64,000 bases of DNA, taken from Xanthobacter autotrophicus (GTDB taxonomy: Bacteria > Pseudomonadota > Alphaproteobacteria > Rhizobiales > Xanthobacteraceae). Where the stretch lies: contig NZ_JAIVFO010000008.1 of assembly GCF_029991245.1 (NCBI RefSeq), forward strand, positions 1 through 64,000, read 5' to 3'. The notes under the pieces are model-generated. The model saw only the letters and a list, made by a program, of their open reading frames with translations, did not search any database and was not told the DNA's origin. Of the stretch, positions 18,305 through 22,253 are shown one piece after another (within the stretch, counting starts at the first letter, position 1; each line of letters opens with the position of its first letter). Made by a program: the position numbers and the translations under genes.

Positions 18305-18952
18305 GTGACCATCATCGTGAAGATCGGCGGCAGCCTGACGCGGGGCGCCGCGCCGCGCCGCCTGCTGGCGCGCCTTGCCGCTGGACAGGGGCTGGTGGTG
18401 GTCCCCGGCGGCGGAGCGCTGGCCGACCAGGTCCGCGCCGTTCAGCCGCAGTTGGGCCTGTCCGATGCCGCCGCCCACCGCATGGCCCTGCTCGCCATGG
18501 AGCAGATGGCCCATGCCATGCTGGACCTCGAACCCCGCCTGCAGCCCGCCCGCACCCCCGCCGAGCTGGCGGCGGCAGCGATGCGGGGCGCCGCCCTGTG
18601 GTTCCCGGCCGCCATGACGCTGGGCCACGCCGACATTCCCGAAAGCTGGGACATAACGTCTGACAGCCTGGCCCTGTGGCTCGCGGCCGAGATGGGGGCG
18701 GAACGGCTGGTGCTGGTGAAGGCGCCGGGCGCGCCAGTTCTCGCCCCCTCCGGCGCCCGCGCCGCCGACATGGCGGCCTGGACTGCGACCGGACTGGTGG
18801 ATGCGGCCTTTGCGACCATGGCGGTCCGGTTTACAGGCGATATTCTCGCCGTCCCCGCCGACGATGGGGACCGGCTCGACGCCGCCCTGCGCACCAAGGC
18901 GGGCACAGCCGCAATAAACGAGGAAACCAGGGAAGGCCCGCGCCTGTCATGA
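18305..18952 (+). CDS. Amino-acid-kinase-family protein, MfnE-like (methanofuran precursor kinase)
   Basis: This 215-residue protein carries VKIGGSL at the N-terminus, a VVPGGGALADQVR loop and ITSDSLALWLA, which together match the small amino-acid-kinase-fold enzymes found with methanofuran genes. In methanogens MfnE phosphorylates aminomethylfuran-methyl phosphate, an intermediate of methanofuran. The start is a GTG at 18305 with GGGAG upstream. It is the first gene of a five-gene operon, and its stop overlaps the next ATG (ATGA). The kinase assignment is strong from context; the precise substrate in bacteria is inferred. Confidence 0.8.
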   Translation: MTIIVKIGGSLTRGAAPRRLLARLAAGQGLVVVPGGGALADQVRAVQPQLGLSDAAAHRMALLAMEQMAHAMLDLEPRLQPARTPAELAAAAMRGAALWFPAAMTLGHADIPESWDITSDSLALWLAAEMGAERLVLVKAPGAPVLAPSGARAADMAAWTATGLVDAAFATMAVRFTGDILAVPADDGDRLDAALRTKAGTAAINEETREGPRLS

Positions 18953-19530
18953 CCGCCAAAGCGCCCCGCGCGAAAACGCCCCGCTGGGCCTGGGCCCTCA
19001 CCGGCTCCGGGCACTATTTCACGGAGAGCATCGAGATCATCCGCGCGCTCCAGGACGTGGACCTGTTCATCTCGGACGCGGCCGACGAAGTGCTGCGCAT
19101 GTACAAGCAGGACAAGGAGCCGCTGCCGGAACAGACCCAGGTGTTCCGCGACAACAGCGCCTCCTCCGCCTCCATCGGCCGCTTCTATCACGGCGAGTAC
19201 CACACCCTGGTGGTGTCGCCCGCCTCGTCCAACACGGTGGCGAAGGCGGTGCATGGCATCTCCGACACCCTCGTCACCAATTGCTTCGCCCAGGCCGGCA
19301 AGTGCCGGGTGCCTTGCATCGTCTTCGCCTGCGACAGCATGCCGGAGATGATCACCATGGCCCCCGAAGGCCCGGTGCCGGTCTATCCGCGCCGCATCGA
19401 CCTGGAAAACACGCGCCTGCTCAAGGAGTTCGATGCCACCGTGGTGGCCGAGACGCTGGACGAGCTGCGCGCCGCCATCGCCCGCCGCCGGGCGGAACTC
19501 GCCCAGCTCTTCCCCGCGCCGGCGGCCTGA
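18949..19530 (+). CDS. Flavoprotein, DmrB/archaeoflavoprotein-like
   Basis: This 193-residue protein belongs to the flavoprotein (PPCDC/UbiX-like) fold: an N-terminal TGSGHY segment and SPASSNTVAKAVHGISDTLVTN, a classic FMN-binding pattern. It resembles DmrB, a dihydromethanopterin reductase found in methanogens and in H4MPT-using bacteria, and related archaeoflavoproteins. In this operon it may reduce a dihydro-pterin to the tetrahydro form or handle another cofactor step. The ATG at 18949 overlaps the kinase stop. The next ATG begins 1 base after its stop. Confidence 0.8.
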   Translation: MTAKAPRAKTPRWAWALTGSGHYFTESIEIIRALQDVDLFISDAADEVLRMYKQDKEPLPEQTQVFRDNSASSASIGRFYHGEYHTLVVSPASSNTVAKAVHGISDTLVTNCFAQAGKCRVPCIVFACDSMPEMITMAPEGPVPVYPRRIDLENTRLLKEFDATVVAETLDELRAAIARRRAELAQLFPAPAA

Positions 19531-19531
19531 G

Positions 19532-20950
19532 ATGGCCGAGCGCGTCGCCCTCGTCACCGGGTCGCTGGCCGAGCCGCGCATCCGCCGCATCGCACAGGAG
19601 ATCGCGGATGACGCCCTCGACCCGGTGGTGGTGAATGTGGGCGTGAAGGTCGCCGCCCTGATGACGGCGGAGATCGTGGAACGGCGCCTGAAGCTGCCGG
19701 AGCGCATCGACCGCGTGCTCATGCCCGGCCGCTTCCGCGGCGACCTCGACCGCCTCGCCACCCGCTTCGGCCTGCCCTTCGCGCGCGGGCCGGAGGAGGC
19801 AGCGGATATCCCCGCCTATTTCGGCAGGGGCCGGGGCGGCGCCGTAAACCTCGACCGGCAGGACGTGCTGCTGTTCGCCGAGATCGTGGACGCCACCCGC
19901 TTGTCCATCGACGAACTTCTCACCCGCGCCCGCTTCCTGAAGGACGAGGGCGCGGACGTGATCGACCTCGGCGCCCTGCCCGACAATCCCTTCCCCCATC
20001 TGGAAGAGGCCATCGCCGCACTGAAGGCGGACGGCTTCAGGGTGAGCGTGGACAGCTTCGACCCGCAGGAGCTGGCACGCGGCACCCGCGCCGGGGCCGA
20101 TTATCTCCTCAGCCTCAACGAGCACACCCTTGCCATCGCCGAGGAAGGCCCCGCCGTGCCGGTTCTGGTGCCGGCGCAGGCGGGGGACCTTGCCTCCCTC
20201 ATCCGGGCGATCGAGATATGCGAGGCCAAAGGCCGGCCGTTCCTCGCCGATCCCATCCTCGATCCCATCCATCTGGGCTTCACCGCCTCGCTGCTGCGCT
20301 ACGCCGAGCTGCGGCGGCTGAAGCCGGACATCCCCATCCTCATGGGCATCGGCAATGTCACCGAGCTGACCGATGCCGACACCACCGGCATGAACGCCTT
20401 GCTCATGGGCATCATCTCCGAGCTTCGCCTGAACGCGGTGCTGGCGGTGCAGGTGAGCCCCCATTGCCGCACCGCCATCCGCGAGTTCGACCGGGCGCGG
20501 CGGGAATTCTTCGCCGCGCGGGAGGCCGGCGCCCTGCCCCAGGGCTTCGGCGGCGGCCTCATGGCCCTGCGCGACCGGCGCCCCTTCACCACCACGCCCG
20601 AGGAGGTGGATCGCCTCGCCGGCACGGTGGCCGACCGCAACTTCCGCATCGAGGTGACGGAACAGGGCATCCACGCCTACAACCGCGACGGCCACCACGT
20701 GGCGCGCGACCCGTTCGACCTCTTCCCCCATCTCAAGGTGGAGGACGACGGCGCCCACGCCTTCTATCTCGGCGTGGAGACGGCGCGGGCCGAGATCGCC
20801 CTGAAGCTGGGCAAGCGCTACGCCCAGGACGAGCCGCTGAAATGGGGCGTGGCGGGCGAGACCGGCAGCAGCGCCGAGGACGCCCACCGGTTGACTTTCA
20901 AGGAAGCGGGCTCGACCCTTTCCGCAAAGAAGAAAGGCGACGCCACGTGA
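19532..20950 (+). CDS. DUF6513/dihydropteroate-synthase-like protein of the H4MPT/methanofuran set
   Basis: This 472-residue protein has a central TIM-barrel-like part resembling dihydropteroate synthase (DEGADVIDLGALPD, RVSVDSFDPQELARGTRAGADYLLS in pieces) flanked by family-specific N- and C-terminal regions. Such proteins accompany tetrahydromethanopterin genes in methanogens and methylotrophs and are thought to join the pterin to its side chain or act on a related pterin. Exact chemistry is unsettled. It begins 1 base after the flavoprotein stop and its stop overlaps the next GTG (GTGA). Confidence 0.8.
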   Translation: MAERVALVTGSLAEPRIRRIAQEIADDALDPVVVNVGVKVAALMTAEIVERRLKLPERIDRVLMPGRFRGDLDRLATRFGLPFARGPEEAADIPAYFGRGRGGAVNLDRQDVLLFAEIVDATRLSIDELLTRARFLKDEGADVIDLGALPDNPFPHLEEAIAALKADGFRVSVDSFDPQELARGTRAGADYLLSLNEHTLAIAEEGPAVPVLVPAQAGDLASLIRAIEICEAKGRPFLADPILDPIHLGFTASLLRYAELRRLKPDIPILMGIGNVTELTDADTTGMNALLMGIISELRLNAVLAVQVSPHCRTAIREFDRARREFFAAREAGALPQGFGGGLMALRDRRPFTTTPEEVDRLAGTVADRNFRIEVTEQGIHAYNRDGHHVARDPFDLFPHLKVEDDGAHAFYLGVETARAEIALKLGKRYAQDEPLKWGVAGETGSSAEDAHRLTFKEAGSTLSAKKKGDAT

Positions 20951-21516
20951 TCCGGGAGACCATCGTCAGCACCCAATCGGCTGCGGGAGAGCCCCATGTG
21001 GCGCCCATGGGCGCGACCCTCGTGGAGGGCGGCTACCTGCTCCAGCCGTTCCGGCCGTCGCGGACCCTGGACAACATGGCGGCCCATGGGGTGGCGGTGG
21101 TGAATTTCACCGACGATGCCCGCGTGTTTGCCGGCTGCATCACCGGCCGGCACCGGTCCTGGCCCACCGTCCCCGCCACACGGCTCGACGGCGCGGTGCG
21201 CCTCGACCGGTGCCTCGCCCATGACGAGGTGGAAGTGACGCGGATGGAGGACGACCCCACCCGCCCGCGCTTCTTCTGCCGCATCGTCCACCGCGAGCAG
21301 CATGCCCCCTTCCTCGGCCTCAACCGGGCGGTGGCGGCGGTGCTGGAAGGCGCGGTGCTGGTCTCGCGCCTGCACATGATGGACCCCGAGCGGGTGGACC
21401 GGGAGATGAACTATCTCTCCATCGCCATCGAGAAGACCGCCGGCCCCGCCGAGCGCGAGGCCTGGGACTGGCTGTGCGAGACCATCGCCGACCATCGCGC
21501 GCGGGTGGCGTCATGA
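20947..21516 (+). CDS. DUF447-family protein (flavin-reductase-like split barrel)
   Basis: This 189-residue protein fits DUF447, a small split-barrel family known mainly from methanogens and H4MPT-containing bacteria: APMGATL near the start, VNFTDDARVFAG, and LNRAVAAVLEGAVLVSR. The fold suggests FMN or pterin binding; no reaction has been assigned that I know of. Translation probably starts at the GTG at 20947, which overlaps the preceding stop, and its own stop overlaps the mfnB ATG (ATGA). Its place in the middle of the operon ties it to the cofactor pathway. Confidence 0.8.
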   Translation: MIRETIVSTQSAAGEPHVAPMGATLVEGGYLLQPFRPSRTLDNMAAHGVAVVNFTDDARVFAGCITGRHRSWPTVPATRLDGAVRLDRCLAHDEVEVTRMEDDPTRPRFFCRIVHREQHAPFLGLNRAVAAVLEGAVLVSRLHMMDPERVDREMNYLSIAIEKTAGPAEREAWDWLCETIADHRARVAS

Positions 21517-22253
21517 CCGTGCATGTGACCCTGCCCGCGGCAACGCGCCCGGGCCTGCTCGCCTCCGTGGCCACGCTCGCCGAGATGGAGGTCGCGCTTG
21601 GCGCCGGCGCCGACATCGTCGACCTGAAGAACCCGGCTGAAGGGGCACTGGGCGCCTGGGCGGAGGCGCCGCTGCGGGCCGCCGTCGCCCGCTGGCGCGC
21701 GACGGGCTGCCTCACCGGCCTCAGCGCCACCGTGGGCGACCAGCCCCTTGATGCGGCCACCATCCTCGCCGCCGCCCGGCGCACCGCCGCCACCGGCGTG
21801 CCGCTGGTGAAGATCGGCTTTTCCCTGCCCGCCGACGGTGCCGGGGCGGCGCTGGCCCCGGTCCTCGAAGCCCTGCGGCCGCTGGCGCGGGAGACACGCC
21901 TCATCGCCGTGCTGTTCGCCGACCAGCATCCGGACCTCGCCACCCTTCCCCGCTTCGCCGAGGCCGGCTTCCACGGGGTGATGCTGGATACGGCGGACAA
22001 GGCGGCCGGCGGCCTTCTCGCCCATCTGGGGGTGGAACGCCTCGCCGGCTTCGTGGCAGAGGCCAAGGCGGCCGGCCTGCTCACCGGCCTTGCGGGCTCG
22101 CTGAAGCTTGAGGACATCGCGCCTCTGGCGGCGCTTCAGCCGCACTATCTCGGCTTCCGCGGCGCCCTGTGCGCCACCGGGCGTACCAGCACCCTCGATC
22201 CGGCGCGGCTCGCTCGGGTGCGCGACGAACTGAAGGGGCGGGTGGCGGCTTAA
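21513..22253 (+). CDS. mfnB: MfnB-type (5-formylfuran-3-yl)methyl phosphate synthase
   Basis: This 246-residue TIM-barrel protein has the DUF556/MfnB lysine pattern: DLKNPAEGALGAW near residue 35, VKIGFSL, and GFRGALC near the end. MfnB makes the furan precursor of methanofuran from two triose-phosphate units via Schiff-base chemistry. Its presence, with MfnE-like and DmrB-like neighbours, is the best evidence for a methanofuran/H4MPT C1 pathway. The ATG at 21513 overlaps the DUF447 stop. It is the last gene of the operon and converges on the amidotransferase gene 30 bases downstream. Confidence 0.88.
   Translation: MTVHVTLPAATRPGLLASVATLAEMEVALGAGADIVDLKNPAEGALGAWAEAPLRAAVARWRATGCLTGLSATVGDQPLDAATILAAARRTAATGVPLVKIGFSLPADGAGAALAPVLEALRPLARETRLIAVLFADQHPDLATLPRFAEAGFHGVMLDTADKAAGGLLAHLGVERLAGFVAEAKAAGLLTGLAGSLKLEDIAPLAALQPHYLGFRGALCATGRTSTLDPARLARVRDELKGRVAA

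Follow-up and report, generated by a model that had tools for sequence, protein, structure and literature searches.

The window analyzed here is a 64,000-nucleotide stretch of the Xanthobacter autotrophicus genome (contig NZ_JAIVFO010000008.1, positions 1-64,000), and at positions 18305-22253 it holds five + strand genes that an earlier note had linked to methanofuran- and tetrahydromethanopterin (H4MPT)-type cofactors. These genes probably form a formaldehyde-oxidation operon serving both archaeal-type cofactors, with Orf19 (DUF6513) and Orf20 (DUF447) acting midway along the pterin (H4MPT) arm. By homology, MfnB would make the furan phosphate of the methylofuran arm, MfnE would activate it, and AfpA/DmrB would carry out the last reduction, that of dihydromethanopterin. 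Orf19 would most likely couple hydroxymethyl-dihydropterin to an arylamine derived from ribofuranosylaminobenzene 5'-phosphate (RFAP) in place of dihydropteroate synthase (DHPS). MJ0301, an unrelated protein of Methanocaldococcus jannaschii, is on record for the pterin-arylamine coupling. The ribose must be reduced to a deoxyribitol, and Orf20, a flavin mononucleotide (FMN) split-barrel protein, would most likely reduce this ribose-derived part.

Composition of the operon

Read on the sequence, the five genes run head to tail, and the gene set, coordinates, 4-base overlaps and 1-base gap given in the earlier note are correct. Homologues of mfnB, mfnE, orf19, orf20 and afpA are grouped here as an archaeal-like H4MPT/methylofuran cluster. 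Protein families were assigned with Pfam and NCBIfam profiles. The MfnE, AfpA, TIGR00284 and MfnB models all scored below their curated NCBIfam cut-offs, so the gene names rest on homology and context. The DUF447 protein had no NCBIfam match.

The first gene, an mfnE/orf21-like kinase gene (18305-18952, GTG start), encodes an AA_kinase protein (Pfam, E 1.8e-10) that also matches PDB entry 7qrh (E 1.7e-10). It reached 64 bits (E 1.2e-17) against the NCBIfam MfnE equivalog, whose cut-off is 300. The protein is MfnE-like by homology and context only, and is predicted to convert F1-P to F1-PP in methylofuran synthesis. The second gene, afpA/dmrB (18949-19530), overlaps the first by 4 bases and encodes a DmrB/AfpA-like member of the Flavoprotein family. 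Residues 11-183 match 3wis/4mwg, titled 'Putative dihydromethanopterin reductase (AfpA)' (phmmer E 1.2e-50); the archaeal model TIGR02699 gave 85 of the 192 bits required. By this close homology the product is AfpA/DmrB, a predicted dihydromethanopterin reductase, which is how AfpA/DmrB is described in PMC6193120. One base after its stop codon begins orf19 (19532-20950), for a DUF6513 protein with a TIGR00284 DHPS-like part. Then follow orf20 (20947-21516, GTG start, 4-base overlap with orf19), coding for DUF447_N and DUF447_C, and mfnB/orf22 (21513-22253, 4-base overlap with orf20). The product of the last gene matches 4HFCP_synth (PF04476) over the cut-off (E 1.4e-63) and the MJ1099 structure 4rc1 (E 3.2e-21). 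Its lysine-bearing motifs DLKNP, KIG and LDTADK align to DVKNP, KVG and LDTAIK of MJ1099. By homology it would be MfnB, the 4-HFC-P synthase catalyzing the first furan step of methylofuran synthesis.

The closest relatives of the window's Orf19 are from X. autotrophicus DSM 432 (97 %) and X. oligotrophicus (96 %). The identical five-gene order is found in five of five Xanthobacter loci that the search for relatives returned, and in the one locus it returned from a Xanthobacteraceae metagenome-assembled genome (L003-L008), so the operon is neither chance nor an artefact of gene calling.

H4MPT and methylofuran genes elsewhere in the genome

The window's genome (G000) comprises 4.96 Mb in 495 contigs. 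The earlier note had proposed looking there for fae, mch, mtdB and fhcABCD; all have homologues, as does MptG. One contig (C356) carries FhcD/Ftr and, by tblastn, fhcC, fhcA and fhcB, together with an MfnD-type ATP-grasp gene, MfnF (TIGR03123 over cut-off) and PqqB. A second (C441) carries Mch and, by tblastn, mtdB and a RimK-type ligase that by position is of the orf5/MyfB type. The third (C62) encodes MptG (TIGR00144 over cut-off), two more ATP-grasp proteins of the MfnD/MyfA type, orf17 (His_biosynth), a CitG-like gene (orf7 by position) and FolB. Three Fae homologues are also present. The labels orfY/MyfA-type, orf5/MyfB-type and orf7 were assigned because of the gene order mch-orf5-orf7 in the paper on Methylosinus trichosporium OB3b (PMC3615186) and the likeness of MyfB to MptN/RimK (PMC8141765). 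The genome thus encodes H4MPT- and methylofuran-dependent pathway proteins. An absence of H4MPT-dependent genes would have spoken against the operon's link to these cofactors; with Ftr/FhcD, Mch, Fae and an RFAP-synthase homologue present, that link is borne out by the protein families and by the pathway genes together.

The fhc genes lie only a few genes away from pqq genes (L002:2892-12124; PqqB confirmed, neighbours read by eye), placing formaldehyde oxidation beside pyrroloquinoline quinone (PQQ) supply. Starkeya novella is a relative. It makes tyramine methylofuran (PMC8141765).

Distribution of DUF447 and TIGR00284 relative to the two arms

More informative on the two arms than the bacterial samples were 14 control genomes, including four archaea. 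MfnB and Ftr matched only in the two methanogens, M. jannaschii and Methanosarcina acetivorans; neither had a match in the Sulfolobus acidocaldarius and Haloferax volcanii controls. DUF447 is present in both of the latter, so it does not need the furan arm. TIGR00284 was over cut-off in three controls, Sulfolobus included, and weak in four bacteria. PF00809 was found in 13 of the 14 controls; Sulfolobus is the exception, yet TIGR00284 is over cut-off there. Sulfopterin use has been reported for a Sulfolobus relative (PMC9931769). Haloferax has matches for DUF447, MptG and Mch and none for MfnB, Ftr or Fae. What speaks for the pterin arm among the archaeal controls is solely that these two genomes have no MfnB or Ftr match.

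We also examined how the families are distributed in bacteria. Across the phylum, DUF447 occurs in 14 of 229 genomes. In the first order surveyed (169 genomes), MptG is encoded in 35, in 33 of them over the cut-off, and all 35 code for DUF447. One further genome, G375, had only a partial DUF447_N match (E 1.1e-4) on a stretch (L053) with no other cluster gene and was left out of the counts. Strong TIGR00284 matches (E <= 2.5e-30) fall in the same 35 genomes; 40 genomes match at E <= 0.001, the weak ones left out being G262, G289, G291, G317 and G363. MfnB is found in the same 35 and in G262 and G371. The second order (250 genomes) was profiled for MptG, DUF447 and MfnB. Strong MptG is present in 23 genomes, and DUF447 and MfnB in 23 of 23; weak matches were left out for MptG (G410, G515) and for MfnB (G413, G414, G575).

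The two genomes with MfnB only, G262 and G371 (131 and 63 bits), were rejected as discriminators between the arms, their NCBIfam scores being well under that of the window's MfnB. By eye, the G262 protein has NLERS in place of DLKNP. Neither protein was counted as a true MfnB occurring without H4MPT. Two MfnB-like genes, L054:5075-5815 (NLERS for DLKNP) and L055:5566-6333, adjoin apparent folate genes, as read by eye, in genomes with no match for MptG or DUF447. Their products possibly catalyze a different reaction.

The earlier note suggested that DUF6513 and DUF447 possibly stand in for steps missing from methylofuran synthesis, which we consider improbable. In the window and in relatives, orf19 and orf20 are tightly coupled to mfnB and mfnE, and each of the 58 bacterial genomes in which MptG is strong also encodes MfnB. 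In Methylorubrum extorquens no gene is assigned to the MfnC transaminase or to the Tyr-Glu ligase (PMC8141765), leaving steps that the two proteins might fill. Those steps call for a transamination and an amide ligation, to which a DHPS-like and a flavin-reductase-like fold both seem unsuited, and the genes required for methylofuran by deletion are orf5, orfY and orf17 (PMC8141765). DUF447 in Sulfolobus and Haloferax, and TIGR00284 in Sulfolobus, also occur without MfnB or Ftr. On these archaeal controls a methylofuran-only role was rejected as first choice and kept as a rival.

Gene order across loci

We compared 48 orf20 loci, of which six, the window included, are closely related Xanthobacter loci and so not independent. 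Orf19 is the next gene 5' of orf20 on the same strand in 45 of them. The spacing is -50 to +36 bases in 44; the 45th, 9447 bases in L052, stems from a partial match. Orf19 does not adjoin orf20 in the other three (L020, L026 and L027, from G326, G349 and G368), where it is unlinked, lying either on a different contig or, within the same contig, at a distance of about 2 Mb. MfnB is directly 3' of orf20 in 19 loci and upstream in 27. FolB lies within five genes upstream of orf20 in 17 of the 48.

A single reading frame encodes MfnB together with FolB (dihydroneopterin aldolase) at L034:12058-13161 (-), as Pfam confirmed, and the two are probably fused in L033, L035, L036 and L040, judged from an overlapping open reading frame (ORF) and tblastn coordinates. 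This fusion joins a furan-arm enzyme to a pterin-arm enzyme.

DUF447 also matches on 37 of 72,556 plasmid records. No archaeal genus appears among the plasmid matches in the 38 records counted at E up to 10. On an Azospirillum brasilense plasmid, FolB, kinase, DUF6513, DUF447 and MfnB are annotated in a row, and another annotated cluster is on Aquabacterium olei pTB101.

Orf19 is a DHPS-like protein

The N-terminal domain of Orf19 is DUF6513 (Pfam, E 5e-22), and the protein matches TIGR00284 with E 7.3e-58, below the cut-off. Its C-terminal end resembles PterinBD-DUF4346 (DUF4346 E 6.7e-6, also below cut-off). In a structure model of moderate confidence (pLDDT 75.5, pTM 0.54), residues ~110-334 form a barrel of the DHPS type, matching 1ad1 over 216 residues (Z 19.5, root-mean-square deviation 3.4 Å). 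D174, S194, D240, N275, T277 and E278 are invariant in 46 of 46 Orf19 sequences. The remaining PF00809 proteins of the genome are FolP-like and MetH-like, which makes Orf19 the spare pterin-barrel protein.

Orf19 was aligned to a FolP profile from the same genome and three relatives (six stretches, L067 and L068 being left out as they have no ORF bearing the motif). The hhalign probability was 94.4, and the aspartate motif VDS/SIDT aligns. The loops of the genome's own FolP that we take to be the DHPS STRPG and SRK loops were not found in the Orf19 alignment, and because they are missing Orf19 was not filed as a DHPS.

Orf19 might instead bind a pterin and transfer methyl or C1 groups, or handle a carrier, and DUF447 would then be its flavin partner. 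The missing loops would fit this, as would the likeness of the C-terminal end to DUF4346 and the MtrA end. N275 and T277, present in 46 of 46 sequences, belong to a G-x-G-N-x-T motif that stands opposite GVSNLS of MetH in a weak alignment. The overall profile likeness is to FolP and not to the pterin domain of the genome's own MetH (probability 1.6), and all of the 50 Foldseek matches listed for the model are DHPS, DHPS-containing or Sul enzymes, which makes this reading unlikely.

Orf20 is a predicted FMN-binding reductase

Both DUF447 domains of Orf20 are over their Pfam cut-offs (DUF447_N E 6e-29; DUF447_C E 1.1e-20). A model built from 9 sequences (pLDDT 93.2) superposes on 3b5m over 184 residues at 1.5 Å (Z 25.5). 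It also matches 2nr4 (Z 21.4, 175 residues), 2iml (Z 20.1, 171) and 2ptf (Z 18.7, 119), the entry titles of which name FMN. Beyond DUF447 entries the matches are mostly flavin reductases, for example ThdF (Z 17.1). Orf20 is therefore predicted from the model to be an FMN-binding split-barrel reductase with a flavin-reductase fold.

Such a fold, together with an afpA gene in the same operon, could also mean that DUF447 has no more than an auxiliary role, as a flavin reductase feeding reduced flavin or electrons to AfpA/DmrB. An afpA match, counted at the locus only, is present at just 26 of 48 DUF447 loci, and we regard this as quite unlikely.

As the earlier note stated, neither DUF protein has an assigned reaction: none was found in the portions of the open-licence literature covered, where the DUF447 reports do not concern cofactor function and no report names DUF6513 or TIGR00284. 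DUF58/DUF447 proteins were suggested in 2026 to take part in Pyrodictiaceae cannulae (PMC13140500). Given the flavin-reductase fold, this role of DUF447 seems unlikely.

Weighing the pterin-arm assignment

Several observations weigh against placing Orf19 and DUF447 in the pterin arm. The furan and pterin arms travel together in bacteria, almost never separating, and bacterial profiles do not distinguish them; the MfnB-like proteins of G262 and G371 look like divergent paralogues. G450, in the second order, codes for DUF447 and a strong MfnB without an MptG match, which either counts toward the methanofuran side or points to a gap in its 130-contig assembly. The four controls with both MptG and DUF447 are all the archaea of the set, so this agreement shows no special tie. 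Haloferax has no TIGR00284 match. It is also a weaker case because in Haloarchaea folate is held to be the carrier and the MptG homologue HVO_2628 probably lacks the RFAP reaction (PMC8305020). For Orf19, the model's confidence, the missing loops and the MetH-like motif count here as well.

A bolder proposal, which we hold to be doubtful, is that orf19-orf20 encode an enzyme pair for the middle of H4MPT synthesis in both bacteria and archaea. Orf19 would be a re-tooled DHPS using an RFAP-type arylamine and not p-aminobenzoate. DUF447 would be an FMN enzyme reducing the C-riboside to the deoxyribitol chain, acting beside RFAP synthase even without H4MPT, as in Haloferax.

An inventory from 2011 estimated that seven unknown proteins take part in methanopterin synthesis (PMC3087415). 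DUF6513 and DUF447 lean toward this list rather than toward methylofuran synthesis. The gain from the analysis is a proposal, open to test, that two orphan families belong to the pterin arm instead; Methylorubrum and other genetically tractable aerobes are suited to testing both families.

Comparison with known systems

Gene 2 is alike in sequence to the DmrB/AfpA of 3wis and 4mwg. Orf20 shares near whole-chain likeness with the DUF447 crystal structures 3b5m, 2nr4 and 2iml and, counting 2ptf, 19-36 % identity; the structure titles name no function.

The idea that the gene set is unusual finds no support. The same five genes form a published island in M. trichosporium OB3b, listed as orf19-orf20-afpA-orf21-orf22 and set apart from its fhc, mch and mptG islands (PMC3615186); the order in the window differs, being orf21-afpA-orf19-orf20-orf22. 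In the 'archaeal-like' cluster of M. extorquens and further proteobacteria, Orf22 is MfnB, Orf21 is MfnE and Orf9 is MfnF (PMC8141765, PMC5020050). Methylobacterium has DmrA instead of Afp and no recognised MfnD in these accounts (PMC8141765, PMC5020050), whereas the window's genome encodes AfpA and an MfnD-type protein. The archaeal-like cluster is widely distributed in bacteria (PMC5020050), and the five-gene operon of Xanthobacter, already known, is a confirmed, ordinary member of this methylotroph cluster.

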